From positions 12,923-45,380 of IMG/VR virus record IMGVR_UViG_3300030102_003660: a stretch of DNA of 32,458 nucleotides, one strand, 5' to 3'. Positions 7,511 through 31,589 of this stretch are shown here, in pieces (position 1 is the first letter of the stretch; each line of letters begins with the position of its first letter). This DNA comes from a virus. The notes under the pieces were generated by a model. That model searched no databases. It was given only the letters and a program-made list of their open reading frames with translations, and was not told the origin of the DNA. Both the position numbers and the translations under genes were made by a program.

Positions 7511-9023
7511 ATTAATTCTTGGCCCACCAGGTACGGGAAAAACTTATACACTTGTTGAAAAAGTCCGAGAATATTTACAAAACGGTGGGCACCCTTCGAA
7601 ACTGGGCATGGTATCTTTTACAAAGAAAGCAGTAGAAGAAATGCTTGAGCGTCTTTGCGCTGAGTTTAACCTCGAACCCAAAGACTTTCCGTATGTCAAA
7701 ACAATGCACGCTCTTGGATTCGCAGGACTGGGACTGACATCAAAAGATATTATGGACAAAGAGGACTACAATGTTATCGGAGAATCCCTGAGTTTAAACT
7801 TCAAAGGGATGGCAGCTACACATACAGAGGACGGTCTGCCAATTAATTCTGTCAAAGGCACAGGGGCGCAGTATCTCCGTTTGATTGCACGATCCCGTTT
7901 GAGAAAGACTAACTTAGAACAGGAGTACCGAGAGGCAGAAAACTTTGATCTCAACTTTTCAAAGTTGCGTCAACTAAGAGACACAATGATCAACTATAAA
8001 TCTACATACGCGAAGTTTGACTATGAGGATATGATTGAAGTCTACATTGAGACAGTAGATCCTCCCTACCTTGAGTTGTTTATTGTAGACGAGGGTCAGG
8101 ACTTATTGCCCTTACAGTGGGAGATGCAGCAAAAGATATCCGAGAAGAGTGATCATACGATTATAGCAGGAGACGATGACCAAGCTATCCATCGGTGGGC
8201 AGGGGTAGATGTAAAGTTATTTATGAACAGTACAAAAAACACCACCGTTCTGAATCAATCGTATCGATTACCGCACGAGATATGGGCGTTGGCTAATCGG
8301 ATCTCCAAACGTATCAACGATAGATTGCAGAAAGACTTTGAGCCTCGGGAACCAGGGGGAGAGGTGCAAACAGTCATGCATCTTACAGACATACCTTTAG
8401 ATCAAGGATCATGGACTCTGATGGCTAGAACAAATAGCTTTGCTCAAGATCTTGCATACGAATTAGAGGAGATGGGATACTTCTATTCGTTGAAGAACAA
8501 ACCTTCTGTGCCATTAGACCAAGCAAAAGCGATCCATGTGTGGCGAGAGTTACGAGAAGGGAAAGCTGTGGACCTGGCCCGAGTAAGAGAGTTTTATGAA
8601 ACGGTGCCGAAGCAGGGTGATTTTGCCGTAGTTAAACGAGGATCGGGTAAATTATTAGATGCAGTGCCGCCGGATGGACTATTAACCTATGAAGAATTAC
8701 TGGGTGAGTTTGGTTTGGTGGCACCCAAAGAACGCGATGAGTACAGTATAGTACGTGTTGGTAGTGATATGGAGCAATACATCCGTTCCATTGAGCGCCG
8801 AGGTCAGGATATCACAAAACCTCCAAGAATCAAAGTTTCTACTTTTCATGCGATGAAAGGGGGTGAAGATGACAATTGTGTAGTTTATACTGGGAGCACA
8901 TACAGGTGTGTTGAAGAAAACGATCCAGATGACGAGCATCGAGCCTTTTATGTTGCCATAACAAGAGCCAGAAAACGTTTGTATCTTTTGGAATCAAACA
9001 AGAAGTACAGGTATATAGTATGA
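7500..9023 (+). CDS. UvrD/Rep-like superfamily 1 DNA helicase
   Basis: The product is about 507 residues, shorter than UvrD (~720), and has the SF1A motifs in order: Walker A ILGPPGTGKTYT (about 7-18), motif Ia MVSFTKKAVEEML, motif II FIVDEGQDLLPLQW (about 195-208), motif III AGDDDQAIHRWAG (224-236), motif IV NQSYRLP, motif V VSTFHAMKGGEDDNCVV, and motif VI FYVAITRARKRLYLL near the end. It should unwind DNA 3'-5' using ATP. The 2B domain appears reduced. A TTG three bases upstream could also start translation, but ATG 7500 has GAGAGG 8 nt upstream. With no DnaB-type helicase visible, this is a candidate replicative helicase. Its stop overlaps the next start (ATGA at 9020). Confidence 0.9.
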   Translation: MSVELILGPPGTGKTYTLVEKVREYLQNGGHPSKLGMVSFTKKAVEEMLERLCAEFNLEPKDFPYVKTMHALGFAGLGLTSKDIMDKEDYNVIGESLSLNFKGMAATHTEDGLPINSVKGTGAQYLRLIARSRLRKTNLEQEYREAENFDLNFSKLRQLRDTMINYKSTYAKFDYEDMIEVYIETVDPPYLELFIVDEGQDLLPLQWEMQQKISEKSDHTIIAGDDDQAIHRWAGVDVKLFMNSTKNTTVLNQSYRLPHEIWALANRISKRINDRLQKDFEPREPGGEVQTVMHLTDIPLDQGSWTLMARTNSFAQDLAYELEEMGYFYSLKNKPSVPLDQAKAIHVWRELREGKAVDLARVREFYETVPKQGDFAVVKRGSGKLLDAVPPDGLLTYEELLGEFGLVAPKERDEYSIVRVGSDMEQYIRSIERRGQDITKPPRIKVSTFHAMKGGEDDNCVVYTGSTYRCVEENDPDDEHRAFYVAITRARKRLYLLESNKKYRYIV

Positions 9024-9829
9024 TTTTACCCGAAGGAAATGTCCTGATTAGTTTCAGTGGAGGACGTACTTCTGGTTATATGTTACACAGGATTGTGGAA
9101 GCCAATGAGGGGTTACCTTCAACCTGCAAAGTATTGTTTACCAATACAGGCAGAGAGATGCCAGGGACACTGGACTTTGTGCGAGATGTAGGAAAACATT
9201 TGGGTGTGGACGTAACGTGGTTAGAATATGACCGCGCTCCATCAAACCGATACATAAATGGATCAGCGCATTTTAAAAAAGTAGATTGGGACAATGCAGC
9301 GCGAAAGGGAGAACCGTTTGATAAATATCTTTCGTTTAACATGTTGCCAAATGTATTCCGCAGATCGTGTACACAGGAACTAAAAGTAAAAACAATGCGT
9401 CGGTATCTTTTGTCTATCGGATGGGAGCACTGGACAAACACAATAGGTATCCGAGCCGACGAAGCAAGAAGGGTCAAGCCAAGCAAAGATAAGCGTTGGG
9501 TAAACTGGTTTCCGTTAGCTGATGCGGGGGTTACGAAACAAGATGTTATGTCGTTTTGGTCAAGGGCACCTTTTGATTTGCAGATCAAACCAGGTTCAGG
9601 AAACTGTGACGGCTGTTTTTTAAAAAGTGAAGCGACGTTAGCTGCTATGTGGAGGGAGTATCCAGAGCGCATGGAATGGTGGCAAGGATGGGAAGAAAAG
9701 AAACAAAAATCTTTCCACGATGTAAGAACATACAAAGGACTCGGAGAGTTTGTAGACAGGCAAGCAGACTGGATCTTTGATGACGAAGCATATTTATGCC
9801 AAAAAAATGATGGGGAGTGTACAGGTTGA
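9020..9829 (+). CDS. PAPS-reductase-like (PP-loop) protein
   Basis: The 269-residue product has an N-terminal PP-loop SFSGGRTSGY (11-20) that binds ATP or an adenylylated substrate, followed by VLFTNTGREMPGTLDFVRDV and the TIGIRADEARR segment typical of the PAPS reductase/adenine nucleotide alpha hydrolase fold. Cysteines C117 (RRSCTQELK), C196 and C199 (NCDGC), and C260 and C267 near the end could form an Fe-S site, as in DndC-like members. Phages carry such proteins widely, but the substrate is not established: sulfur metabolism, tRNA or DNA modification have all been suggested. It overlaps the helicase gene by ATGA and lies just upstream of a DUF6378-like gene and polA, so a DNA-linked role is plausible. 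Confidence 0.8.
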   Translation: MILPEGNVLISFSGGRTSGYMLHRIVEANEGLPSTCKVLFTNTGREMPGTLDFVRDVGKHLGVDVTWLEYDRAPSNRYINGSAHFKKVDWDNAARKGEPFDKYLSFNMLPNVFRRSCTQELKVKTMRRYLLSIGWEHWTNTIGIRADEARRVKPSKDKRWVNWFPLADAGVTKQDVMSFWSRAPFDLQIKPGSGNCDGCFLKSEATLAAMWREYPERMEWWQGWEEKKQKSFHDVRTYKGLGEFVDRQADWIFDDEAYLCQKNDGECTG

Positions 9830-19171: not shown

Positions 19172-19464
19172 GTCGTTGTCACCGTTACTGTTCCTACCGC
19201 ACCTATCGCCCCAGAACCACGGACATGCGGTTTGTTAATTAATGTTATCTTAACAAAACCATCCTGTTGAAACAATGCTCCATTTTCTAAGCCTGCATCA
19301 TCTGTTGGTAAATCTGTCAAGGTAAGTCGTGTTGCTCTTTCTTCTCCTGGGTTCTGTTGTTGTTCCATATATACAGCAAAACTTCGCGTGAGATTTGCGA
19401 AGTATTGTTGGTCGTACTGCGTTGGTGGCACAGCGAAGAACGGAAGAATTAAGTTTCGTGACAC
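19168..19464 (-). CDS. small virion protein ending in a shared repeat
   Basis: The 98-residue product begins MSRNLILPFFAVPPTQYDQQ and YFANLTRSFAVYMEQQQNPG, a pattern I associate with small marine-phage virion proteins. It ends GSGAIGAVGTVTVTTT, a partial copy of the short repeat found in three other virion genes here. It starts with GTG, preceded by GGAGG at a good distance, and overlaps the upstream stop (TAGTG). Function is unknown; tail or connector association is inferred from its neighbours. Confidence 0.55.
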   Translation of the reverse strand: MSRNLILPFFAVPPTQYDQQYFANLTRSFAVYMEQQQNPGEERATRLTLTDLPTDDAGLENGALFQQDGFVKITLINKPHVRGSGAIGAVGTVTVTTT

Positions 19465-21686
19465 TATCTCCTCCCATCAGGACGCACATCTAGTCTTGGT
19501 GAACCCAATCGCCACCCCACCCCAGAGGCTGTAGATTCTACTCGCATTGCAAAACTACGTCCGCGTAATCTCAAATGCACTTGGTCTGTGAACTGCTCAA
19601 CAGGCACCGATGCTGACTTGGTGATAGCACTCGATGTTGACTGTAGATAATTGCCTCCAGGGAAGTTACGTGTTTTTACTGTTATGTTTGCAGAAGGACT
19701 ACCTGCTGTTGATCCTCTGAATGTTAGATCTGGAATCATTCTTTTAATAAAAGCAAACTGATCGCCGTCTCCTATATCTATTTGACTAGATTCAATGTAT
19801 GCGGTCAGTGCAGATCCATCATCATCAAAGCCTGTCTCTTGTGAGTACAAATAGTTATTAGGGCCTGCCGCGATTGGCTGTTCAAAAATCCCCCTATCCA
19901 TCCAGAAGCTACGAGACATTGTGCCAAAATACCAAACTTTTTGTTCGTAGTTATAGACCACATATCTATCGTTATTTGTGCTAGAAGCAGAAGGATAAAA
20001 CCACCAGATTTCAGAAAATGCTGTGTTACTTGAAGCAACAATTTTTTCTCTTTGTTCTATATTAATATCACTAAAAATGTAATCTCGAACAGAACAAGGC
20101 AGACGCTGCACCGTACCGCCATATACATAAAACTCTTTTAGACCCATCCAAAAGACGTTGTCTTCAACGGCAACCGCAGACAATGGACCCATTGTGGTAA
20201 TGTTTTCTGATACTAAATTGATACCAAAAGTAAATGGTGGCCCTAAAAACTGCATGGCATACAAGGATTCGTCGGTGTACACCAAGATCTGCTGTCTTGT
20301 TTCTATAGCTGTAAGTATCTCTGAACCAGAACCGAGACGCAACTCTCCTGCTGTATTGGTCGCTGTGGATGCCCAGTCGGTTAAAGATTCTTGGGAAGAG
20401 AATCGTATAGCCAACGGATCTTGGACACCCGGATTAGCCTCTGTATCACAACCAAATGCTATGATATGTCGGTCTCGGTCTGATACCAAAACTTGTTTTG
20501 CAATAGTTGGTGCGCTAGTAGACCCTGTTAAAGAATCTAAAGCCACCGCTCTTGTATTAAAACCACTTGTTTTATCCCAATAGTATATACCGCCATTACG
20601 CACATTAATTAGAAGGTCTTCACCAAAATTATCATGTGTCCAAATTCGTAACGTATCTGTTTCTATGCTAGTGCTTGCGGCACTTCCCCATGTCCCGCGT
20701 CCCCATGTTCCTGCACCCCATCCAGTCCCATAGACCACCGAATCAAGTCCTGCGTTTAATTGATATTGTGCAACACTTGTAACTCCTCCATCTCCAACGT
20801 CTGAACTATTTGCAACAACAGGCGTTGGGACAAGCTGACCATTAACTGTAATGTCTTGTATTGATGTATTTGCTAATCGAGCAACAAACGTAAAAGTTTG
20901 TGAAGAAGGAACAGATGCTATTTCATATTCTTGATTGAGAACATCTGCTGTAATATTGCCACCTAAACTATCTACACCAGAAAAAGTTACAAAAGATCCT
21001 GTTGTTGCTCCATGTGCCTCGTTTACAGTCACAGTTATTGTTGAAGATCCGTTTGTTGCTGAAAAAGAAAGATCGTCAAACACTGTTACGTTTTGACTTG
21101 ATGTGCCTACTGAACCAACGGAAGATGTGGCCGAAACTCCAGTCACGCTAACAGACTCGTCAAGATCACCTGAAATAGTTACTTGCCCAACAGACCCTAT
21201 AAGCGCAGGTGCAGACAGACCAACTATTTCATTTGTAGCTGTGTTTGTGCTTCCACTTACTAAAACAGAACCCACCGCCGCTGAACCGCTGACGCCTGTT
21301 ACAGTGGCTACATTGTCATTTTTAGTTATTTCACCAACGCTCGTTGTAGCAGATACTCCGACAACACCTATAGTAATAGAATTATTTAGTTCATTCGTAA
21401 GACGAAGAGGAGTTATATCCCTAAAAGAACCGCTATCTTGATTTATATAATATTTAACTGATGTTCCAATACCAATTAATCGGCTATTATCTAACCCTAC
21501 CCAAGGATGCATAGCTCTTGCTGTTCCTAAATAAGATGCAGGCGTAAACTTCTCCCACCCACCAATTTTCTCAGGCATACCAAAGCGAAAGCGTACTTTG
21601 TCTACATCAAACCAACCGCCCTCATTGGTGTAAGAGGTGGTCTCTCGATTGACCCCTGGGCGGAACTGAAGTTTGGTAAGTGGCAT
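19464..21686 (-). CDS. putative tail/connector protein with inserted repeats
   Basis: The 740-residue product starts MPLTKLQFRPGVNRETTSYT and continues WFDVDKVRFRFGMPEKIGGW, a leader typical of a family of marine podovirus proteins in the DNA-stabilisation/tail-connector class (P22 gp10-like by size and beta-rich composition; an inference). Residues 104-200 are four copies of a 21-26-residue repeat (TGVSATSSVGSV type). Later segments contain beta-propeller-like strands (KQVLVSDRDRHIIAFGCDTE, RQQILVYTDESLYAMQFLG, KIVASSNTAFSEIWWFYPSA) and a Trp/Gly stretch WGAGTWGRGTWGS. AGGTGATAA precedes the ATG. It lies between the repeat-propeller genes and the internal proteins. Confidence 0.6.
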   Translation of the reverse strand: MPLTKLQFRPGVNRETTSYTNEGGWFDVDKVRFRFGMPEKIGGWEKFTPASYLGTARAMHPWVGLDNSRLIGIGTSVKYYINQDSGSFRDITPLRLTNELNNSITIGVVGVSATTSVGEITKNDNVATVTGVSGSAAVGSVLVSGSTNTATNEIVGLSAPALIGSVGQVTISGDLDESVSVTGVSATSSVGSVGTSSQNVTVFDDLSFSATNGSSTITVTVNEAHGATTGSFVTFSGVDSLGGNITADVLNQEYEIASVPSSQTFTFVARLANTSIQDITVNGQLVPTPVVANSSDVGDGGVTSVAQYQLNAGLDSVVYGTGWGAGTWGRGTWGSAASTSIETDTLRIWTHDNFGEDLLINVRNGGIYYWDKTSGFNTRAVALDSLTGSTSAPTIAKQVLVSDRDRHIIAFGCDTEANPGVQDPLAIRFSSQESLTDWASTATNTAGELRLGSGSEILTAIETRQQILVYTDESLYAMQFLGPPFTFGINLVSENITTMGPLSAVAVEDNVFWMGLKEFYVYGGTVQRLPCSVRDYIFSDINIEQREKIVASSNTAFSEIWWFYPSASSTNNDRYVVYNYEQKVWYFGTMSRSFWMDRGIFEQPIAAGPNNYLYSQETGFDDDGSALTAYIESSQIDIGDGDQFAFIKRMIPDLTFRGSTAGSPSANITVKTRNFPGGNYLQSTSSAITKSASVPVEQFTDQVHLRLRGRSFAMRVESTASGVGWRLGSPRLDVRPDGRR
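21087..21377 (-). repeat. four copies of a 21-26-residue repeat in the connector-like gene
   Basis: Codons 104-200 of the 740-residue protein hold units beginning VGVSATTSVGEI, TGVSGSAAVGSV, VGLSAPALIGSV and TGVSATSSVGSV. The same unit is found in the genes at 28555-29475, 31593-32057 and, as a partial copy, 19168-19464. Confidence 0.7.
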
Positions 21687-21693
21687 TTATCAC

Positions 21694-23157
21694 CTATGTC
21701 TTTACTACGAGTTCGGTTGCAGAAATAGCAGTTCCTGCCAGTACACTTGGGCTATCCGCTGTTGTGCCTATAGTTCCATCTCCCTGTACAAAGTATTGCT
21801 GTCCTGCGGTAAGACCAGATTGCTCATTATTCACTGCACCAATAATATCTACAGTTGCACCCTTGGTGTCAGCTACAGCGCCACCTTTAGATATGCCTAT
21901 ATAGTTTTCTGAGGTGAGGTTTGTTGATGTGTACGTTGCATCAATAACAATTGCCGCAACATTAGTACTCACGACATCAGGATCTCTGTAACCAAAAACA
22001 ACTTTCTTTTGATCTGGATCATAAGTCGCTGAGTTTATAAACCAAGTAGGTGAAGAACTTGAAAATTCTACAGCAGTCTCAAAAGTAATACTGTTAGTGC
22101 TTAAAGCGCCAGAGGCCACCGTTCCAAATTTAAATTTACCAGAGGTATCTGAATTATCTCTGTATGCAACAAATACTTTTTTAGCTTCTTCGTGATAAGC
22201 AGCATTACTATAATAAGTCGCAGCAGAATTATGAACAGTTTCCCCACTGACAGTAATAGTTGACCCTGACACAGTAGCTGTAACATAACTCCCATAGGTT
22301 GAATTGCCCTGATCTGAATAAAATATTACAAATTTTTGAGCATTTTTATCATAAACAGCAGAAGTGTGCTGAGTAGCAGCATTGTTAAAAGTTGCACTAC
22401 CGTTAAGAGAGACAGTGGTGCCACTGACCGAAACGCCAACAACATATCCTTTACCACTCGAACCTTCATAAGACATAATCAACACATCATTATCGGAGTC
22501 ATAAGCAAAACTAGGCCACTCCATGTCACTGCCTGTTAGGGTGCCAACTGAACCAAAACTTATAGAAGTTCCAGACACGGTTCCTGCAATAAATTTTGAA
22601 GAAGCCGCTTCATAAGCAATCACAATACATTGTTGAACTGGATGGTAAAAAGTAGCAGTGTGTCCATAAATAGAAGCTGCAAACTCTACTGCGGTTCCAA
22701 AGCTTATAGATGTACCGCTGACTGTACCTACAATAGCCTTTCCTTTACTACTGTCACCCGAAGCTTGATAAGCTATTACAATTTTACCATTGGATTCGTC
22801 ATAGGCACAAGATGGATAATAAATATTTTCGGAGCTAAAAGCTACAGGTGTACCAAAGCTTATAGAATTATCTGAACCGTTTACTGTTCCAACAACAGCA
22901 TAACCATTATTATCAATTAAATCTCTATAAACAAAAACTACTTTGTCATTTGCAGTGTCATAAGCTCGACTTGATATTTGATATGAGTTATTAGAAGTTA
23001 TTGCTACTTTTGTACCTGCTGCCTGAGTTCCGCTACTCGATGAAATTACAGACACAGTACCATCAGCATTAACCAACACTGGTTTACCGCTTGGCAATGT
23101 GCCACTGGCTACTGCTTTAAACTCACCACTTTCTTCAGCCCCTATACGTCTTAACAT
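21694..23157 (-). CDS. repeat beta-propeller virion protein A, putative fibre/adhesin
   Basis: The 487-residue product has three parts. The N-terminal cap is ASGTLPSGKPVLVNADGTVS. About seven divergent repeats of roughly 50 residues follow, with core consensus VGTVSGTSISFG, then YDxxNxKVVxxYRD (e.g. AYDTANDKVVFVYRD). A conserved C-terminal domain of about 75 residues starts at NLTSENYIGISKGGAV and ends TELVVKT. One four-strand blade per repeat would give a seven-bladed propeller. The C-terminal domain is common in fibre-like proteins of marine phages. It is adjacent to two paralogs. A host-surface role is inferred from this and from the neighbouring fibre genes. Confidence 0.65.
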   Translation of the reverse strand: MLRRIGAEESGEFKAVASGTLPSGKPVLVNADGTVSVISSSSGTQAAGTKVAITSNNSYQISSRAYDTANDKVVFVYRDLIDNNGYAVVGTVNGSDNSISFGTPVAFSSENIYYPSCAYDESNGKIVIAYQASGDSSKGKAIVGTVSGTSISFGTAVEFAASIYGHTATFYHPVQQCIVIAYEAASSKFIAGTVSGTSISFGSVGTLTGSDMEWPSFAYDSDNDVLIMSYEGSSGKGYVVGVSVSGTTVSLNGSATFNNAATQHTSAVYDKNAQKFVIFYSDQGNSTYGSYVTATVSGSTITVSGETVHNSAATYYSNAAYHEEAKKVFVAYRDNSDTSGKFKFGTVASGALSTNSITFETAVEFSSSSPTWFINSATYDPDQKKVVFGYRDPDVVSTNVAAIVIDATYTSTNLTSENYIGISKGGAVADTKGATVDIIGAVNNEQSGLTAGQQYFVQGDGTIGTTADSPSVLAGTAISATELVVKT

Positions 23158-23159
23158 AG

Positions 23160-24644
23160 TTACCCTTTCACGATAAGTTTAGTTGCCGATACAGCCGTCC
23201 CTGCAAAGACGCTAGGAGTAGCCGCTGTTGTGCCTAATGTGCCATCCGTTTGAACGTAGTAGCTTTGCCCTGCTGTCAGCCCTGAGAGGTTGTCGGCTAT
23301 TGCACCTTGCGTATCAATCACAGCCCCTGCACCAGAAGCTGCACCACTACGAGATATGCCTATGTAGTTTTCTGAGGTAAGGTTTGGGACTGATCCTGCT
23401 GCTTGAAAAACAAGTGATGTACCATAACGAGAATTACTTGAATCTGCAAAAGATATTACAACTTTTTTTGAATTTGAATCAAATGTTGCACTGGTATAAC
23501 TATAATGCCCTCCTGATATTGAGCTATCAAACACAACTTGAGTATCAAATGAGATGGATGTTCCGCTTACTGTACCAACAACCAACTCTCCTACTCTTGG
23601 ATTGTCTGTATCATTTTGATATGTAACAACTATTTTATTTGCGTTTGAGTCAAATGCAATTGACAAATAATTACAATTTTTACTTCTAAATACAGTCTGA
23701 GAGCCAAAGCTAATAGATGTACCAGACACTGTTCCTACAATTCCGCATCCTTCACCTGGTACAGTTCCGTCAGGATCTTTATAAGCTACAATCATTTTAT
23801 TGTTAGTTGTATCAAAAGCACCACGTATTTCATTTAGACTATTGCCAGTGATATTTACAGAAGATCCAAAACTTATGGACGTACCAGAAACAGTACCAAC
23901 AATTGCTTTCCCAATGCTACTTGCGTTATAAAAGATAACAACTTTGTTAGAGTTACTATCAAAAGCAGCATCTATATTAGTTGTGTTTGATGACTCAAAT
24001 GCAGTATTTGAACCAAAGCTTATACTAGTTCCAGATACCGTTCCAACTATTGCCATTCCATAATTTGAATTTGTTGCTTCTCTGTATACAATTACCACTT
24101 TACCTTGACTACTATCAAATACAGCCGATAATGGAAAGGTATCACTTGTTATCTCACCAGTTTCAAATTCAGTTTCAGAGCCAAAACTAATAGAATTATC
24201 TGAAGCATCTACTGTCCCAACAATTGCTCCACCATCACCCCCATCAGAGTTTTTACGATAAGCAATAACTATTTTATTGTTGGTGCTATCAAATACTGGT
24301 TTAGACCATATTACTGTACCAGCTTGATATACAACAGGTGTACCAAAGCTTATAGAGTTTCCGCTTACTGATCCAACTACGGCTGTACCATAGTTACTAT
24401 TTCCATCGTCTTTATAAACAACAACTACTCTATTAGTGCTGCTATCAAAAACGGAATTAATATATTCAGTTGTAGCACTTTCAAAAACGGTCCCACTACC
24501 AACATTTTGAGAAATAGATACTAAGCCTACACTACTCACAGTCCCATCAGCGTTCACAACAACGGGCTTGCCGTTTGGCAACGTACCACTGGCGACTTCT
24601 TGTGTCTGTCTTGGTACGCTTGGATCGTTACCAATGATACGCAT
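23160..24644 (-). CDS. repeat beta-propeller virion protein B, putative fibre/adhesin
   Basis: The 494-residue product has the same plan as its downstream neighbour: an N-terminal cap VASGTLPNGKPVVVNADGTV, about seven repeats with VVGSVSGNSISFG or IVGTVSGTSISFG and FDSSTNRVVVVYKDDGNSNYG, and the C-terminal domain from NLTSENYIGISRSGAA to TKLIVKG. Repeats are more alike here than in protein A, with spacing near 52 residues. Its stop is two bases from the start of protein A, so the two are co-translated. The shared cap and C-terminal domain argue for duplication of a whole gene. AGGA lies 6 nt before ATG. Confidence 0.65.
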   Translation of the reverse strand: MRIIGNDPSVPRQTQEVASGTLPNGKPVVVNADGTVSSVGLVSISQNVGSGTVFESATTEYINSVFDSSTNRVVVVYKDDGNSNYGTAVVGSVSGNSISFGTPVVYQAGTVIWSKPVFDSTNNKIVIAYRKNSDGGDGGAIVGTVDASDNSISFGSETEFETGEITSDTFPLSAVFDSSQGKVVIVYREATNSNYGMAIVGTVSGTSISFGSNTAFESSNTTNIDAAFDSNSNKVVIFYNASSIGKAIVGTVSGTSISFGSSVNITGNSLNEIRGAFDTTNNKMIVAYKDPDGTVPGEGCGIVGTVSGTSISFGSQTVFRSKNCNYLSIAFDSNANKIVVTYQNDTDNPRVGELVVGTVSGTSISFDTQVVFDSSISGGHYSYTSATFDSNSKKVVISFADSSNSRYGTSLVFQAAGSVPNLTSENYIGISRSGAASGAGAVIDTQGAIADNLSGLTAGQSYYVQTDGTLGTTAATPSVFAGTAVSATKLIVKG

Positions 24645-24652
24645 GTGAAGTC

Positions 24653-24910
24653 CTACTCTTCTTCTTCAGGCTCTACCCAATCAGGATTAGCTGACCACGT
24701 TGTGCCATCAAACTTATACTTATTACCTATCCAATCCTCTGGTGCGTTGGTCACGTTCTCAGTAATTGTGGTGTTGCCACTGTTGAGATCAGCGATAATA
24801 AACTGAGCAGGATCACCTACTGTGATATCATTCGCTGTCGCTGTGATTACTACGTCATCTGCAAGTAAATATTTGCTCAACTTAGTTGAAGTTTCCACGA
24901 TAGTTTTCAT
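24653..24910 (-). CDS. small fibre-associated protein
   Basis: The 85-residue product starts MKTIVETSTKLSKYLLADDV, continues VITATANDITVGDPAQFIIA, and ends in GNKYKFDGTTWSANPDWVEP plus a Glu tail. The WxGxKYkFDGTTW...NPDWVEP ending is known to me from small proteins encoded beside marine-phage tail-fibre genes. It lies between two propeller genes, 3 bases after one and 8 bases before the other. It could be an assembly factor or a small fibre component. Confidence 0.55.
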   Translation of the reverse strand: MKTIVETSTKLSKYLLADDVVITATANDITVGDPAQFIIADLNSGNTTITENVTNAPEDWIGNKYKFDGTTWSANPDWVEPEEEE

Positions 24911-24913
24911 TGT

Positions 24914-27463
24914 CTAACCTTTCACTATTAGCTCTGTGGATGATATCGCAGTTCCCGCCGTAACGGAAGGACTTCCTGCTGTTAAACTTAATGTGCCTGC
25001 GGGAGTAACAAAGTATGTCTGCCCCGCTGTTAAGCTTGTTTGATTTCTTGCAATCGAGCAAGAAGAAAGTATCTCGCCATTCGTGCCGTCTAACGCTGCA
25101 CCGTCCATAAACCCTACGAAGTTTTCTGTGGTGAGGTTAGTGGAATTAAATGTAGGATTATAAATCCTAGATTTACCAGTGGAAGAATGACTATATCCAA
25201 TAAACATTTTTTCGTTTGCGGTATCTTCTGCAAGCGCATAAGCCCTGCCACCTACAGTGCCACTGGTTTCTAACTGTGTGCCACTTGAAAAAGTTATTGT
25301 TGTGCCGCTAATTGTTCCATATTTCAACGTAACTTTTTGGCTTCCGTCACCAATGTCATCGTAAACTAAAATTACTCCGCCCCCAGAAAATCCTCGTATG
25401 CCCATCCAATCAACTGAACCAGATTGAAAGGTAACTCTACTAGCGTAAGTAATAGTATCACCCGATACCGTACCAACAAAAGCACTACCATAAGCAGTAT
25501 TTGCTTCATCTCTCATAACAATTACAATTTTTCCTGATGCAGAATCGTATGCAATTTCATTTTGGTTGGCTTGACCATTGGTAATATAACTTTGCCTGCT
25601 ACCCGCAGTTACAGACGTTCCTGATACAGTCAGAACTCTTGCTGTGCCGATTGAGCTACTTGCTCTAAAAGCAACAATTACTTTTTCATTAACAGGGTCA
25701 TATACAGCAGCATTATAAATACCCGAACCACCGTCATATGTTACTATACTTCCAAAACTTATAGAATTACCTGATACAGTACCAACAATAGCTTGCCCAG
25801 ATGGACTTCCACCGTCATAATATGTAACTACAACTTTACTTTCCGCAGTATGATATACTGCGCTAATATAAGTTGTTTCTCCACTATGAAAAACTACTGG
25901 CGTACCCCATGTAATAGTTGTTCCACTTAATGTCCCAACAATTACTTTACCATAAAAACTATCGTCTTGATCTTGATATGCCACTACAATTTTAGCATTG
26001 ACAGGATCATAAACTGTCGAAGTCCATTGAGTTTGGCCTGACTCAAAAGTCGCCTCACTACCATAAGAAATAGATTGACCAGAAATCGTACCAACAATGT
26101 AGGTGCCTGCCCCACCATTTCCACCATCTCTGTATATGACGACGATTTTACCATTTGCACTATCATAACAAGCTGATGCAAAATTAGAGCTAGACGAATT
26201 ATAATTAACAGTAGAACCAAGACTTTCTGAATTAGCCGTTTGACTAATACTACTCACAGTCCCATTTGTATTTACAATGACAGCCGAACCATCGGCTATC
26301 GTGCCGCCTGTGGCTTGGGAATAACCTATTTTGAAAACGACTGCCTCACCGTAATTTGAATTGCTAGGAGATCTATAGGCAATAACTACTCTTCCTTGAT
26401 TAGCATCATAGGCAGAGGCAATATAGTCTGCACTTGCATCTTTGAACAAAACCATATCCTCAAAAGTTATAGAGGTTCCGCTTACAGTTCCAACATACGC
26501 TTCTCCCTTACTACTATTTGAATCATCAGAACCAGTTATTAAAATTCTTCCTGCACCTGAATCAAACGTAGTTGAAAAATAACCGCTATTACCTTCATTA
26601 AAAACTACGGGAGTACCAAAAGATATAGATGTCCCTGAAACTGTACCCACCACAGCGGTTCCATAACTGCTGTTCCCACTGTCTTGATAAGCAAGCACTA
26701 TTTTTTGATTTACACTGTCGTAATCACCTGAGATGTAATTACAATTACCTGATTCAAAAGTTGCGGCTGTACCAAAGCTTATAGAGGTTCCGCTTACAGT
26801 TCCCACTATGGCTTGTCCAGTGCTTGACTCTTGATAAGCAATTACGATTTTATTGTTTGTACTGTCATATATTGCAGTATTACTTACGGACGGCCCTGTG
26901 TCATAGACTACAGGTGTACCAAATGAAATAGAGGTTCCACTTACGGTTCCTACAGCCGCAGTGCCTCTAAAAGTATTTCCATCATCTCTATAAGCAACAA
27001 CTATTCTTTGGGCATTAGCATCATAAGCTGTGCCTGTATCCTCAATTGTAGCACTTTCAAAAGTGGCTATAGATCCAAAGCTAATAGAAGTGCCACTAAC
27101 TGTTCCAACAACTGATCTGCCATAATTTGAAGAACCCCTAAAACAAAAAACAACTTTATTATTATTTGAATCAAAAGCCCCTGATATATACCCAGTAGTT
27201 GCACTAGAAAAGACGGCGGGGGTTCCAAACGAAATACTAGAACCAGACACAGTTCCTACGATTGCAGTTCCATAATTACTGTTTCCTTGATCCCTATAAG
27301 CAATAACAATTTTTTGGTTACTTGAGTCATATACGACAGCATTAAAAGAAACTGTTGCACTTTCAAACGTTACAGAAGATCCTATTTCTTGAGTAACAGA
27401 TATACCTTCACTGACCGCAGCCCTGATGATGGCGTCTTTGGTTAAGTTGCCAATTACCTTCAC
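24914..27463 (-). CDS. double repeat beta-propeller virion protein C, putative fibre/adhesin
   Basis: The 849-residue product holds about twelve to thirteen ~52-residue repeats in two blocks. Block one has six clear copies of VGTVSG(T/S)SI(S/T)F. Between the blocks is ATGGTIADGSAVIVNTNGTV, which resembles the N-terminal cap of the paralogs. Block two has more divergent copies (IVGTISGQSISYG, IVGTLSGTTITWG, FVGTVSGDTITYA). The protein ends with the shared domain from NLTTENFVGFMDGAAL to TELIVKG. The architecture is that of two fused propellers, each like proteins A and B. The start is GTG with AGGAG 7 nt upstream. Receptor binding is inferred. Confidence 0.65.
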   Translation of the reverse strand: MKVIGNLTKDAIIRAAVSEGISVTQEIGSSVTFESATVSFNAVVYDSSNQKIVIAYRDQGNSNYGTAIVGTVSGSSISFGTPAVFSSATTGYISGAFDSNNNKVVFCFRGSSNYGRSVVGTVSGTSISFGSIATFESATIEDTGTAYDANAQRIVVAYRDDGNTFRGTAAVGTVSGTSISFGTPVVYDTGPSVSNTAIYDSTNNKIVIAYQESSTGQAIVGTVSGTSISFGTAATFESGNCNYISGDYDSVNQKIVLAYQDSGNSSYGTAVVGTVSGTSISFGTPVVFNEGNSGYFSTTFDSGAGRILITGSDDSNSSKGEAYVGTVSGTSITFEDMVLFKDASADYIASAYDANQGRVVIAYRSPSNSNYGEAVVFKIGYSQATGGTIADGSAVIVNTNGTVSSISQTANSESLGSTVNYNSSSSNFASACYDSANGKIVVIYRDGGNGGAGTYIVGTISGQSISYGSEATFESGQTQWTSTVYDPVNAKIVVAYQDQDDSFYGKVIVGTLSGTTITWGTPVVFHSGETTYISAVYHTAESKVVVTYYDGGSPSGQAIVGTVSGNSISFGSIVTYDGGSGIYNAAVYDPVNEKVIVAFRASSSIGTARVLTVSGTSVTAGSRQSYITNGQANQNEIAYDSASGKIVIVMRDEANTAYGSAFVGTVSGDTITYASRVTFQSGSVDWMGIRGFSGGGVILVYDDIGDGSQKVTLKYGTISGTTITFSSGTQLETSGTVGGRAYALAEDTANEKMFIGYSHSSTGKSRIYNPTFNSTNLTTENFVGFMDGAALDGTNGEILSSCSIARNQTSLTAGQTYFVTPAGTLSLTAGSPSVTAGTAISSTELIVKG
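25200..27330 (-). repeat. tandem ~156-bp (52-codon) repeats of propeller protein C
   Basis: Repeat cores recur every ~156 bp. Two positions, 26467-26491 and 26779-26803, share the same 25 bases (plus-strand start TTATAGAGGTTCCGCTTACA) exactly 312 bp apart, i.e. two repeat lengths. Related degenerate copies extend through 21930-24480 in proteins A and B. Confidence 0.75.
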
Positions 27464-27862: not shown

Positions 27863-28543
27863 TTACCCAAAAACAATAGCCATAGCTATGGCTTTACCAG
27901 TTGAAACTCCAGCACTTCCAAAAGAAATAGTGCCACTGCCATTTGTAACTAAAGCTTGCCCATTTGTCCCATCGGACGTAGGAAGAGTAAGAGCCGTTAC
28001 AAATCCCTGTAGGTTTGAGTCATAAGCCAATACATCTGACCCAATCGCAACCCCTAAATTTGTTCTCGATGTTCCTGCATTTGCAACATCGGATAAATTA
28101 TTTGCAGCTAATAAAGCACCTGATACGGGAAAAGTGGCAGTCAGATCCACAACTGCGGCACCTGATCCGGCACCATCACAATATATTATTGCAGATTTTC
28201 CATTTGCTACAGTAACATTTCCACCTGATCCTTGAGAAAAAGTAGCGGACTGACCTGAGTTGTTTTTCACAACATATAATCTTTTTGCATCATTCGGAGA
28301 AACCGTTATGGTATTTGTTCCAGAAGGAGAGCCGCCTAAAACCAAAACATGATATTGTCCGTCTGAAGCGGAACCATCTGATGTAGTCAGTGTATGTGTC
28401 GTTCCCGATAGTGTGATGTCTCCAACACCCACTGCCAAACGATCAATAATGTCAAAATTAGTATTGGTTGACGTACCCCATGTTCCAGATTCATCACCTG
28501 TCGCAATCTTTTTAATACCGCCATTTGTTGTATAGGTTGCCAT
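27863..28543 (-). CDS. putative tail fibre protein
   Basis: The product is 226 residues from ATG 28543 (AAGGT upstream); a longer frame to 28576 exists but lacks a ribosome site. It starts MATYTTNGGIKKIATGDESG TWGTSTNTNFDIID, a leader typical of short phage fibre proteins. A beta-rich middle (VLVLGGSPSGTNTITVSPND) follows, then the fibre motif LAANNLSDVANAGTSRTNLG VAIGSDVLAYDSNLQGF, common in T4- and cyanophage-like fibres. It overlaps the stop of no neighbour and lies 12 bases from the next gene. A role in host contact is likely. Confidence 0.7.
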   Translation of the reverse strand: MATYTTNGGIKKIATGDESGTWGTSTNTNFDIIDRLAVGVGDITLSGTTHTLTTSDGSASDGQYHVLVLGGSPSGTNTITVSPNDAKRLYVVKNNSGQSATFSQGSGGNVTVANGKSAIIYCDGAGSGAAVVDLTATFPVSGALLAANNLSDVANAGTSRTNLGVAIGSDVLAYDSNLQGFVTALTLPTSDGTNGQALVTNGSGTISFGSAGVSTGKAIAMAIVFG

Positions 28544-28554
28544 TTTTTCTACCT

Positions 28555-29475
28555 TTACGCTGCTATTTCTGTCCAAATTGTGTTTGGATTAGGCTGTTCC
28601 TCCGTCCATGTGCTATTAGGATTTGGAGTCACACCTGTCCAACTTGTACCTGGAGCAGGAACTATATTACCGTAAACTAACACAGAACTTACGCTTGCGC
28701 TAGTGCTTACACCAGTTACATTCACAATAGAGTTTGCTTCAATTGTTACACTGCCAACTTCGCCTATTGAAGATAAATTACCTCCAAACACAGGAACTCT
28801 TTGAACTGTTTTTAAAGTGACTGTTCCAACAGAACCTATTCCTGCAACACCTGTAATCGCAACATCTGAAGCATTACCAATAATACTTGGTTCTGTGACA
28901 CGTCCTGTAGCTTCAACTCCTGTTACGTTTACATCAATACCTGTGCCTGCGTTTATAGAAACAGTGCCTACGCCGCCTCTGGCTTCAAGTCCTGTAGGTG
29001 GAACACTAGCGCCTGCTTCTACAGTTGTTCCAGATCCAACCACGCAATTGGCTTCAACTCCTGTAAGTGTTATAACAACACCATTACCTTGAACTACAAC
29101 CGCTGTGCCGACACGACCAATGCTTTCAATACCTGTAACTGGAACGCTTTGTTCTGTAACAAGAGTTACATCACCAACTCTTGCTATACCTGCAATACCT
29201 GTAAGTATTACACTATTGTTCCCTTTTGCAGTTGAGGTTCCTACATCACCAGTGCTTTCAATACCTGTTACACTAACTGAAATATCTTCACGTATAACAG
29301 CAGTGCCAACCTGCCCTTGCATTGCAGCAAGAGTAGATTTTTCACCACCCCACGCGGTTGTGCCGAAACCTTCCTCACCCCAACCAGTTAGTTCGTGACC
29401 AACAGGAACAGAGAGTGCTTCATTCCAAGCACCCTCACTCCATGCTCCACGACCCCAACCTGTGATGTTTGTCAC
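28555..29475 (-). CDS. repeat-rich virion protein (9-10 short repeats)
   Basis: The 306-residue product has a Trp/Gly-rich N-terminus (GWGRGAWSEGAWNE, GWGEEGFGTTAWGG), nine or ten repeats of 22-24 residues at about 50-262 with consensus VTGIESxGxVGTVxV, and a C-terminus of three related Trp-rich segments (TSWTGVTPNPNSTWTEEQPN, then PNTIWTEIAA). The repeats are probably short beta hairpins that stack into a rod or prism. It starts with GTG. A structural role near the fibres is inferred from neighbours. The same repeat occurs in three other virion genes here. Confidence 0.6.
   Translation of the reverse strand: MTNITGWGRGAWSEGAWNEALSVPVGHELTGWGEEGFGTTAWGGEKSTLAAMQGQVGTAVIREDISVSVTGIESTGDVGTSTAKGNNSVILTGIAGIARVGDVTLVTEQSVPVTGIESIGRVGTAVVVQGNGVVITLTGVEANCVVGSGTTVEAGASVPPTGLEARGGVGTVSINAGTGIDVNVTGVEATGRVTEPSIIGNASDVAITGVAGIGSVGTVTLKTVQRVPVFGGNLSSIGEVGSVTIEANSIVNVTGVSTSASVSSVLVYGNIVPAPGTSWTGVTPNPNSTWTEEQPNPNTIWTEIAA
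28690..29320 (-). repeat. tandem 66-72-bp repeats encoding TG(I/V)ExxGxVGTV units
   Basis: Units starting TGIESTGDVGTS, TGIAGIARVGDV, TGIESIGRVGTA, TGVEANCVVGSG, TGLEARGGVGTV, TGVEATGRVTEP, TGVAGIGSVGTV, FGGNLSSIGEVGSV and TGVSTSASVSSV follow head to tail within the gene at 28555-29475. Confidence 0.75.
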
Positions 29476-29972: not shown

Positions 29973-30269
29973 TCAAAGTCTCCTTATAAGTTCAGCCAGT
30001 TGGGGATGACCTGCATCTTTAATTGCATTGCATACAGTGGTGCGGTCACTACGAATAGCCTGTCTCATATAGTATTCGACGAGCTTTTCAACGTGCTTTG
30101 AGAAAGCACGAGCTTGATCTCTTATCCCAGGATGGGCGTTATCAGAGACCGAAATTACTTTTTCTACGCATTGTTGCGCTAATTCTTCAGGCGTAAAACC
30201 ACGGTTATTTGTAGTTCTTACATCTAAAATTTGTTGGTTTTGCGGTGCGTTTACATCTATTTTAAACAT
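29973..30269 (-). CDS. small helical virion-block protein
   Basis: The 98-residue product (MFKIDVNAPQNQQILDVRTT...) has a helical body, GFTPEELAQQCVEKVISVSD, DQARAFSKHVEKLVEYYMRQ, and a basic end. It overlaps the adaptor-like gene by TAATG. The sequence type recurs beside phage adaptor genes in marine phages, but no function is known to me. Confidence 0.6.
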   Translation of the reverse strand: MFKIDVNAPQNQQILDVRTTNNRGFTPEELAQQCVEKVISVSDNAHPGIRDQARAFSKHVEKLVEYYMRQAIRSDRTTVCNAIKDAGHPQLAELIRRL

Positions 30270-30919
30270 TATTGCTTGGCCCTAATTACTTTTCCAGTGC
30301 GATATTCGTCGGTAGTTTCTTTTGCTTCTCCAAGCATCTTAATACCAATTAATGATTCCTCAAACCGTTTATTATACATTGCCATGACATCTTGTTCACC
30401 CTTCATGTAAATATACGCCTCAATAAGTGCGCCATATAACAAAGCCATTTCAGCGTTTTCGCTTAACCAAGTGGTTCCACCGTCCGCTCCGGCAGTTAAA
30501 CTAGCAGGGCGATAAAAATAGTGAAGTTCTGCGGTGAACGTAGTATTCGGAGTCGGAGCCAATATAAAGTTGTCTACATCGAAAACAGCATAATATTTAG
30601 GAGATCCTGTGGTTGTAGCATCTGGAGTGTATGTCTGTATAAAGCTAGGATCTTTAAAATCTATGAAAAACTTGTCTCCATCTGTGCCTGCAAGGCTAAG
30701 AGAAAACGGAGCTAAAAAATCACTAGGACAGGCTAAAAACTTATTACTTGCTGTTGTAGAGGCAGTAGCATTTTTACGAAACAAACTAAGTTGCACGTTT
30801 TTTAATATTCGTTCCTCTGCTATTCGTATAAACAACGGAAGATTTGTTACGAAAGAAGTCTCATCATTTTCCGTATAATCTTGAATAGCTGTTTTAAGTT
30901 GTGCGTATGTAAAACTCAT
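30269..30919 (-). CDS. head-tail adaptor-like protein (phage SU10-type)
   Basis: The 216-residue product starts MSFTYAQLKTAIQDYTENDE TSFVTNLPLFIRIAEERIL, then PSDFLAPFSLSLAG, YYAVFDVDNFILAPTPNTTF TAELHYFYRPASLT, and ends with NAEMALLYGALIEAYIYMKG EQDVMAMYNKRFEESL. This order, an N-terminal helix pair, a beta domain and C-terminal helices, matches the neck adaptor family of podoviruses such as SU10. The protein should sit between portal and tail. Placement by pattern recall; no search was possible. Confidence 0.7.
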   Translation of the reverse strand: MSFTYAQLKTAIQDYTENDETSFVTNLPLFIRIAEERILKNVQLSLFRKNATASTTASNKFLACPSDFLAPFSLSLAGTDGDKFFIDFKDPSFIQTYTPDATTTGSPKYYAVFDVDNFILAPTPNTTFTAELHYFYRPASLTAGADGGTTWLSENAEMALLYGALIEAYIYMKGEQDVMAMYNKRFEESLIGIKMLGEAKETTDEYRTGKVIRAKQ

Positions 30920-30926
30920 ATCATAC

Positions 30927-31589
30927 TCAATTTGTGGTCACTATTGTTATATTTCCTACCATAGCACTATGATTAGTGCATTGATATACTAGAGATGTAT
31001 CACTTGGTTCATGTGGTACGATAAACTGCGTCAACCCTGTAGTTGAATTAAAGTTTTCTGTAACACCCGTGGTAAAAGCAGAACCACCATTGGATGTTCT
31101 AATCTCCAAAGGATGACTACTTACATTTGCGGTGTTGTCAATTAAATATGTATGTCCACAATAAAAAACAAAATTTGGGTTATCTCCAGACGTAGCTCCA
31201 GGGCCAGTAAAAGTATATGCAGATGATCCATTTGTTCCCGCTGTGTATTTTGTTACAGGACCAGATGTCTCATCATTTAAACGCAGCCATGCCCCTCCAT
31301 GCGCAAAATATAGTCCTCCAGTCGCATGAACATGAGCCACAGCGCCATGATATGTAGAGGCACTTGGTAAATCGCTTAAAGCTGCATAATAGAATACAAT
31401 TTTATTTGCACCAGAACTAACATCAAATAAACCATTTGAATCAATTATATCAGTAAGAACATTAGAACTATTACCTAATGCAGCATAAATCTCATTAAAG
31501 TTATCATTTATTTTATCCGCACCTGCACGAAGGGTGTCCCCTGTTCCGTCATTTGCAGATGAGCCAATACCTACTGTTTGTTTTGCCAT
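30927..31589 (-). CDS. tail fibre-like protein with cupredoxin-like C-terminal domain
   Basis: The 220-residue product starts MAKQTVGIGSSANDGTGDTL RAGADKINDNFNEIYAALG, the standard leader of marine-phage fibre proteins. A domain with HGAVAHVHATGGLYFAHGGA follows (81-100). The C-terminal half (about 113-218) reads TYLIDNTANVSSHPLEIRTS and then LVYQCTNHSAMVGNITIV. The residues H159, C204, H207 and M210 lie where a type I copper protein has its His-Cys-His-Met ligands. Similar domains occur in cyanophage virion proteins; whether metal is bound is unknown. AAGGA lies shortly before the ATG. Confidence 0.7.
   Translation of the reverse strand: MAKQTVGIGSSANDGTGDTLRAGADKINDNFNEIYAALGNSSNVLTDIIDSNGLFDVSSGANKIVFYYAALSDLPSASTYHGAVAHVHATGGLYFAHGGAWLRLNDETSGPVTKYTAGTNGSSAYTFTGPGATSGDNPNFVFYCGHTYLIDNTANVSSHPLEIRTSNGGSAFTTGVTENFNSTTGLTQFIVPHEPSDTSLVYQCTNHSAMVGNITIVTTN

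Follow-up and report, generated by a model that had tools for sequence, protein, structure and literature searches.

Seven-bladed propeller cassettes carried by three tandem, probably tail-associated adhesins of a marine phage

The tracking of changing host surfaces by marine phages is usually seen only as hypervariability of the host-recognition genes. The window analyzed here (32,458 nt, positions 12,923 to 45,380 of IMG/VR virus record IMGVR_UViG_3300030102_003660) comes from a marine phage with three adjacent tail-adhesin-like genes, A, B, and C. A sequence-only reading of the locus had proposed stepwise duplication within one phage, with C produced by fusion of two genes. Comparison with related phages points, instead, to an old set of scaffolds among which whole propellers are exchanged.

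Results

Three paralogs with one or two seven-bladed propellers

A blade profile search confirmed the repeats of about 52 residues previously noticed in the three proteins, counting 7 in A, 7 in B, and 14 in C (whole-protein E values of 1.7e-85, 2.5e-124, and 2.2e-224, respectively; the best value among 300 shuffled A/B/C sequences was 1.4). A and B, which are 40% identical over their full length, have the cap ASGTLPxGKPVxVNADGTV in common, and both end in a domain of about 70 amino acids. This C-terminal domain, as anticipated, also ends C, and the two repeat blocks of C indeed flank a cap segment; C starts with a short peptide that lacks the cap and carries its sole cap between the blocks, at residues ~388-405. 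Repeat-to-repeat DNA identity is patchy and low (65-90% in short stretches), and Tandem Repeats Finder, run over the window, detected no array at the A/B/C repeats, so that the blade repeats are old at the DNA level and recent repeat slippage is ruled out as their source.

The AlphaFold model of B consists of one seven-bladed ring (pLDDT 88, pTM 0.84) and that of C of two separate seven-bladed rings (pLDDT 86), bearing out the predicted propeller geometry, although the pTM of 0.50 for C means that the relative orientation of its two rings is not fixed by the model. VIA-align against propeller structures yielded Z scores of 28-32 across ~300 residues and, together with the models and the repeat counts, identifies the fold as a β-propeller with seven four-stranded blades per ring. 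The top structural matches in the PDB are seven-bladed propellers, fucose-binding lectins among them (Z ~30). Scanning A, B, and C against Pfam and PHROG returned no convincing family, and PDB sequence searches gave nothing significant, with no match at E 0.1 in a profile search. The rings resemble PLL, PHL, and BP39L, the Photorhabdus and Burkholderia lectins (PDB 5c9l, 5mxf, 6gxr; Z ~30), which are likewise seven-bladed, repeat-built binding proteins, but, at only ~10% identity in the structural alignment and with no profile match, they are not relatives of the PLL family by sequence; they also differ from these lectins in being phage-borne and inserted into a scaffold.

Foldseek places sialidases high, as would be the case if the propellers were sialidase-like enzymes, or else virion decoration, and their exchange served, for example, depolymerase specificity. 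We consider this unlikely because the best structural alignments are with YncE and nonenzymatic seven-bladed lectins, no family or PDB profile, including the Pfam sialidases, ties the sequences to an enzyme, and the tail-fiber-like N termini found on the same module in other phages favor adhesion.

Genomic context suggests a role in adhesion

Given that an SU10-type adaptor and a protein with the T4 gp9/10 N-terminal domain are encoded nearby (Table 1), the trio belongs to the virion structural module. A, B, and C themselves have only a short N-terminal peptide, with no recognizable tail-attachment domain. In some relatives, the same scaffold with its propeller is also found at the end of tail-fiber-like proteins, and, in related phages that have been cultured, genes for lectins or tail fibers occur in the same neighborhood; these two observations make host binding by A, B, and C plausible. 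Around the homolog in HTVC023P, the tail-region genes have no clear lectin or fiber annotation except for one putative tail protein. The cultured marine podovirus Lentibacter phage vB_LenP_ICBM2 (Zobellviridae) encodes a propeller-like relative, gene 49, in its tail gene region, adjoining genes annotated as tail assembly chaperones; in contrast to the window, this gene is single and divergent (~30% identity), and there is no trio. For these three paralogs, which are probably tail-associated adhesins, we infer presence on the virion and binding to receptors.

Table 1. Positions of the trio, its scaffold, cassettes and borders, and neighboring genes in the window
Feature	Positions	Strand	Remarks
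Protein with T4 gp9/10 N-terminal domain	30927-31589	(-)	
SU10-type adaptor	30269-30919	(-)	
Short tail-fiber-like protein (phrog_31104, phrog_2282)	27863-28576	(-)	upstream of C; 100% nt identical in L089
Gene C (slot 1)	24914-27463	(-)	849 aa; one scaffold with two seven-bladed propellers
C N-terminal scaffold peptide (MKVIGNLTKDAIIRAAVS...)	27390-27463	(-)	95-100% nt conserved in L089, L309, L145
C propeller cassette 1	26335-27389	(-)	site a, inside N-cap; 100% nt identity in L089; replaced in L145
C cap segment between rings (GGTIADGSAVIVNTNGTVSS)	26241-26334	(-)	89-98% nt conserved
5' border of C propeller 2 (AATGGGACTGTGAGTAGTATT)	26246-26266	(-)	site of L089 breakpoint
C propeller cassette 2	25139-26240	(-)	site b; unrelated ring in L089, L309, L145
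3' border motif of C propeller 2 (AACCTCACCACAGAAAACTTCGTAGG)	25113-25138	(-)	3 mismatches
C C-terminal scaffold domain	24914-25138	(-)	
85-aa ORF between slots 1 and 2	24653-24910	(-)	inside backbone block 24534-25138
Gene B (slot 2)	23160-24644	(-)	494 aa; single seven-bladed propeller
B 5' border (GATGGGACTGTGAGTAGTGTA)	24528-24548	(-)	
B propeller cassette	23385-24533	(-)	replaced in L145, L309, L077
B 3' border motif (AACCTTACCTCAGAAAACTACATAGG)	23359-23384	(-)	1 mismatch
Gene A (slot 3)	21694-23157	(-)	487 aa; single seven-bladed propeller
A 5' border (GATGGTACTGTGTCTGTAATT)	23044-23064	(-)	diverged
A propeller cassette	21922-23049	(-)	retained in L077, 84% nt
A 3' border motif (AACCTCACCTCAGAAAACTATATAGG)	21896-21921	(-)	1 mismatch
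Stabilization/virion structural protein (phrog_3287)	19464-21686	(-)	directly downstream of trio

Whole propellers are replaced between conserved borders

Alignment of the window with its relatives reveals a variable module swapped between conserved flanks. Gene C of L089 is 100% identical to that of the window over the first 1,215 nt and then, from the 5' border, runs into an unrelated second propeller. In L145, all four propellers are replaced, in a backbone that is 84-95% identical to the window at the nucleotide level in the parts compared between the rings and 75% identical further upstream; the backbone block noted in Table 1 is 87% identical in L145 and L309. Rings that are nearly identical (up to 99% nucleotide identity over ~1.15 kb) occupy one slot in one phage and a different slot in another, their breakpoints falling at or close to cap/DGTV and ENYIG. 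All cases of exchange between slots are from metagenome-assembled contigs; the cross-slot pair L101/L103, proposed from sequence patterns, was rejected as probably a slot-labeling error. The movement of propellers between phages as cassettes is well supported by these comparisons. The exchanged unit is the whole seven-blade ring, which argues against blade shuffling inside rings as the main mode, and no contig carries near-identical rings in two of its genes, which likewise eliminates gene conversion within a genome as the principal origin of the rings. In C, one ring occupies the usual site and the second lies in a loop of the N-terminal half of the scaffold, inside the cap; L077 has an additional ring just downstream of the A 3' border motif (site c). 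Some pairs display local mosaicism inside the ring.

Ranked by synonymous conservation across slots, the border codons take the top seven places among 227 columns, and the same codons recur in nearly every scaffold lineage, whereas a control scaffold stretch differs by lineage. The 3' border consensus matches A, B, and C with at most 3 mismatches; the 5' consensus has no match in the window DNA with 2 mismatches allowed, reflecting variation at two or three codons of these borders in the window. A bolder proposal, that the borders are recombination sites selected at the DNA level and giving any slot of compatible phages access to a shared global pool of propeller cassettes, possibly through a dedicated recombinase, seems doubtful to us. 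If true, it would make the borders part of a gene-cassette system for phage adhesins. Site-specific shuffling systems (shufflons, invertases) and diversity-generating retroelements use a dedicated recombinase or reverse transcriptase with recognition repeats; here, the border motifs are conserved, and neither enzyme was recognized among the larger ORFs of the 45-kb record that were scanned. The location of the effect at synonymous positions would also fit a codon- or RNA-level constraint on expression, such as pausing or structure, unrelated to recombination, but this appears quite improbable, considering that the conservation marks the two ends of the exchanged unit, the places in which breakpoints cluster, and is weak over the rest of the scaffold.

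Scaffolds stay in their slots

The family comprises at least 551 related stretches in IMG/VR, and the ordered trio (slot 1, the 85-aa ORF, slot 2, slot 3) recurs in ~30 contigs. The blade count is 7 or 14 in 224 of the 238 complete, nonidentical proteins. A slot may hold two rings, one ring, or an empty scaffold with no ring, as in L172, and the extra rings are located at five different loops of the scaffold. The contig of L006/L047 has two slot-2 genes, and its empty slot is treated with caution because this contig may be chimeric. A search of genome contigs retrieved a single relative, in a contig of a marine euryarchaeote metagenome-assembled genome that is possibly a misbinned viral contig. 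Fitch changes of slot, counted for 136 single-propeller proteins, number 4 on the scaffold tree and 58 on the propeller tree (shuffled mean 63.2 for each), the latter count being partly noise because the deep branches are poorly resolved, so that the near-identical pairs carry the argument. By this test, scaffolds are inherited by slot and propellers are not.

These results bear directly on the duplication scenario, in which a propeller gene was duplicated twice in one phage lineage and two copies were fused into C. Although A, B, and C are clear tandem paralogs and the repeats of C fall into two blocks, the scaffolds sort into three old orthologous groups whose order is the same in many contigs; C has one cap and one C-terminal domain; propellers of different genes within one genome are at most ~63% identical (median 43%); and what distinguishes close relatives is that entire rings have been replaced. 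In its simple form, this scenario is refuted by the slot tree and by the presence of only one scaffold in C, and we deem it very unlikely overall; rather than being a fusion of two genes, gene C encodes a slot-1 adhesin whose rings occupy two sites. The likewise very unlikely possibility that short-read assemblers created false exchanges by joining different phages at the borders, which are short conserved stretches within repeats and hence a classic place for misjoins (the contig of L006/L047 looks odd), is countered by differences of ~1-10% of nucleotides in the shared tracts, so that these are not the same reads, by recurrence of the same combination in contigs from several samples (e.g., L014, L015, L033, L034), by L145, where a single misjoin cannot explain a divergent backbone with all rings replaced, and by the synonymous conservation of the borders, which is independent of any single contig.

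Discussion

Taken as a whole, a model of tail-associated adhesins with exchangeable propeller cassettes appears likely. Under this model, a scaffold of ~110 residues, composed of the N-terminal cap and the C-terminal domain of ~70 residues, holds exchangeable seven-bladed propellers in its inter-strand loops. The sequence comparisons show that the scaffolds remain in three ordered slots, that entire propellers of 7 blades (~1.1 kb) are exchanged from phage to phage and from slot to slot, and that the exchange tracts end at or near two borders kept at synonymous codon positions (5' GAYGGNACTGTNAGTGTT, 3' AACCTCACCTCNGARAACTAC). The propellers may bind host surface glycans or proteins, and exchange, presumably during coinfection through homologous recombination at the borders, would yield combinations of receptor specificities.

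Propeller-cassette exchange is a variation on already known swapping of adhesin modules. In the T4 superfamily, recombination between conserved motifs of the gp37/gp38 adhesin modules reportedly generates new receptor specificities. As in that system, adhesin parts are exchanged at conserved motifs; here, however, what moves is an entire seven-bladed propeller, carried in the loops of a separate scaffold, and the slots, three paralogs in tandem, may contain no ring, one, or two. For the exchange of receptor-binding domains in tailspikes, conserved flanking DNA motifs have been proposed as recombination hotspots (Pas et al. 2023, PMC10408124). In tailspikes, a C-terminal domain is exchanged, whereas here the cassette lies within the coding sequence, bordered on either side, and also moves between the three paralogs. 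In marine phages that otherwise resemble one another, the hypervariable parts, or metaviromic islands, include genes for host recognition (Mizuno et al. 2014, PMC3909814); the islands are described there from the recruitment of reads, and the words propeller and cassette are absent from the paper.

Because the unit, its borders, the slots, and the empty state can all be read from sequence across the family, rates of exchange, combinations of cassettes, and links to hosts become measurable. The small scaffold, taking intact propellers at five loops, would represent a natural modular adhesin, and exchange of its propellers could allow fast change in what these phages stick to.

Fold and genomic setting

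The neighbouring adhesin-like genes C, B and A, transcribed in that order with the stabilisation protein gene directly downstream, encode repeats of about 52 residues recognised by a blade profile, against which shuffled A, B and C sequences score an E value of 1.4 at best. AlphaFold modelled B as a single seven-bladed ring (pLDDT 88.3, most of the ring above 90; pTM 0.84; alignment of 86 sequences) and C as two separate rings (pLDDT 86.1; pTM 0.50; 33 sequences), the relative placement of which is not fixed by the model because of its pTM. The propeller geometry that the sequence-only reading had proposed, with two rings in C, is borne out by these models. The top structural alignments (Z 29-32, about 10% identity) were to YncE and to seven-bladed lectins from Burkholderia and Photorhabdus, and the Foldseek ranking also includes sialidases and integrin heads. 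The nearest predicted viral structures are three entries (26-43% identity) and a protein of Lentibacter phage ICBM2.

The window represents 32.5 kb of a 45,380-bp IMG/VR record, and its late genes encode a large terminase, an SU10-type adaptor, a protein with the T4 gp9/10 N-terminal domain, the stabilisation protein (phrog_3287) and an ejection protein. At 51-54% identity, the nearest relatives of its DNA polymerase are found in phage 023Pt_psg01, Pelagibacter phage HTVC023P and phage DSL-LC04. The stabilisation protein has an apparent insertion of about 200 residues (residues ~95-270), with repeats like VTGVSATSSVGSV that resemble those filling a separate protein; its homologues align as two pieces flanking this insertion.

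Features of the window and of related contigs (L numbers)
Feature	Location	Strand	Length	Description
Phosphoadenosine phosphosulfate reductase gene	9020-9829			Auxiliary metabolic gene; helicase on one side, DNA polymerase on the other
Stabilisation protein	19464-21686
A	21694-23157	-	487 aa	Slot 3; 7 blades
B	23160-24644	-	494 aa	Slot 2; 7 blades
Small ORF	24653-24910		85 aa	Acidic tail; between slots 1 and 2, within conserved backbone
C	24914-27463	-	849 aa	Slot 1; 14 blades
Separate repeat protein	28555-29475			VTGVSATSSVGSV-like repeats
Adhesin	L058:5754-7991			Slot 2; usual ring plus different-family repeats (DGTKMYV...YxLSTAWD)
Adhesin	L061:4935-7151			As in L058
Scaffold with large insert	L316:4718-6343			Slot 2; insert at usual site, unrecognised by blade profile; another insert type
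Tail-fibre-like protein	L163:7451-14509		2,353 aa	Four scaffold + seven-blade units
Empty scaffold	L172:201-581		127 aa	Slot-2-like N-terminal half, slot-3-like C-terminal half

Rings as units of gain and loss

Relatives share a recurrent gene order of slot 1, a gap similar in size to that carrying the small ORF in the window, slot 2 and slot 3, with slots labelled from N-terminal sequence patterns that leave a few errors among the labels. Ring numbers per trio are 1+1+1 in 15 contigs and 1+1+2 in 13. Exactly 7 blades were counted in 184 of the 238 complete, non-identical proteins and exactly 14 in another 40, so the whole ring is the unit gained or lost.

In single-ring relatives, a cap ending in VNADGTVSVV leads into the ring, followed by NLTSENYIG and the C-terminal domain. 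The suggestion that C arose by fusion of two genes did not hold: its N-terminal peptide runs directly into ring 1, and a single cap, ring 2 and one C-terminal domain follow. The same layout occurs in L086, L088 and L145, and L089 and L309 start with an N-terminus and ring 1 like those of C. The second ring of most other double-ring proteins lies after ENYIGMSGG. A further such loop lies before LTxGQxYFVQ: L081 and L132 carry a ring there, and L058 and L061 a propeller-like repeat that belongs to a different sequence family. In L078 a ring sits in yet another loop, before the last strands. One small scaffold (cap plus C-terminal domain) therefore accepts rings in five different loops.

Blades are present in 585 of the 601 ORFs having the C-terminal domain. 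A few scaffolds have almost nothing between DGTVSxV and NLTxENYIG, so ringless scaffolds can exist: L047 (117 aa, complete, on a doubtful contig), L172, and L012, L068 and L237, which are truncated by contig ends. The L172 hybrid looks as if recombination had removed everything between its two halves. Contig IMGVR_UViG_3300032087_000961 (L006, L047) carries two distant slot-2 genes, one filled and one empty, and may be an assembly chimera.

Exchange of rings between slots and phages

Exchange was assessed throughout by comparing assembled contigs. In separate trees of 136 single-ring proteins, the scaffolds required 4 slot changes versus 63.2 for shuffled slot labels (minimum 54), and the rings, the deep tree of which is noisy, required 58 versus 63.2 (minimum 53). 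Shared rings link slot 1 of L019 to slot 3 of L038 (99.7% identity at the amino-acid level and 99.1% at the nucleotide level over 1,166 nt), slot 3 of L010 to slot 2 of L024 (99.3% over 1,148 nt), slot 3 of L011 to slot 1 of L049 (98.7%), and slot 3 of L021 to slot 2 of L054 (96.9%). Identity in cross-slot pairs drops steeply beyond the shared block, which begins anywhere from 16 codons upstream of DGTV to 2 downstream of it and, in most pairs, ends 2 to 7 codons beyond the E of ENYIG (exceptionally, 13 codons earlier in L031/L046 and 11 later in L010/L034). These recent, near-identical cases indicate that rings moved between slots. Rings of different genes in one contig are at most ~63% identical (median 43%), making other phages a likelier source than internal copying.

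Replacement is also seen around the window's own genes. A stretch of 5.67 kb in L089, which comes from another sample, is 95.7% identical to the window; it begins upstream of gene C and runs into the gene itself, whose first 1,215 nt, including ring 1 and the cap, are identical; directly after AATGGGACTGTGAGTAGT, L089 switches to an unrelated ring. L145 retains the N-terminal peptide (95%) and cap (89%) of C and two further blocks: one takes in the C-terminal domain of C, the small ORF and the B cap (87.5%), the other the end of B together with the A cap (84%). Apart from short repeat matches, none of the four window rings aligns with L145. In L309 alignment fails likewise for the second ring of C and for the B ring, and ring 1 is a related one (78%). 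L077 retains the A ring (84%) and bears one additional ring in slot 3.

Shared codons at the ring borders

For 134 single-ring genes, we scored per column how often the same residue has the same codon in different slots, minus the codon-usage expectation. The mean excess over 227 columns was 0.056 (sd 0.114), and the seven top-scoring columns (0.41-0.67) are confined to the two borders, at ACT, AGT and GTT in DGTVSV and at AAC, CTC, ACC and AAC in NLTSEN. The chance of this ranking is 3.5e-9 assuming independent columns, which is not strictly true. In nearly all scaffold lineages these border codons are the ones most often used, and thus rings only ~40% identical have the same synonymous border codons; the control stretch PSVxAGTA has lineage-specific codons. 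This pattern would be explained either by constraint on the DNA or by constant recombination inside the border. Hitch-hiking alone does not account for it.

Putative adhesin function and known systems

In five relatives, scaffold and ring make up the distal portion of proteins whose N-termini resemble tail fibres, a resemblance assigned by a tail-fibre PHROG match in L070 only and by sequence in L042, L051, L062 and L063; L163 encodes several such units in one protein. The L163 contig, binned to a marine euryarchaeote MAG, could be a virus placed in the wrong bin or could belong to an archaeal virus. Among related cultured phages, DSL-LC04 carries a concanavalin A-like lectin protein and CRP-901 a tail fibre in the stretch upstream of their homologous stabilisation protein. 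These fusions and neighbours point indirectly to a putative role in adhesion.

Swapping of adhesin modules at conserved motifs in T4-like phages is described in work cited in PMC7289586 and PMC10408124, recombination hotspots have been proposed at conserved DNA motifs that flank tailspike binding domains (PMC10408124), and marine phages have variable host-recognition genes known as metaviromic islands (PMC3909814). Since the open-licence papers searched gave no account of propeller cassettes that can be exchanged, of scaffolds in three slots or of slots left empty, we judge the propeller cassettes to be a novel form of this known swapping.
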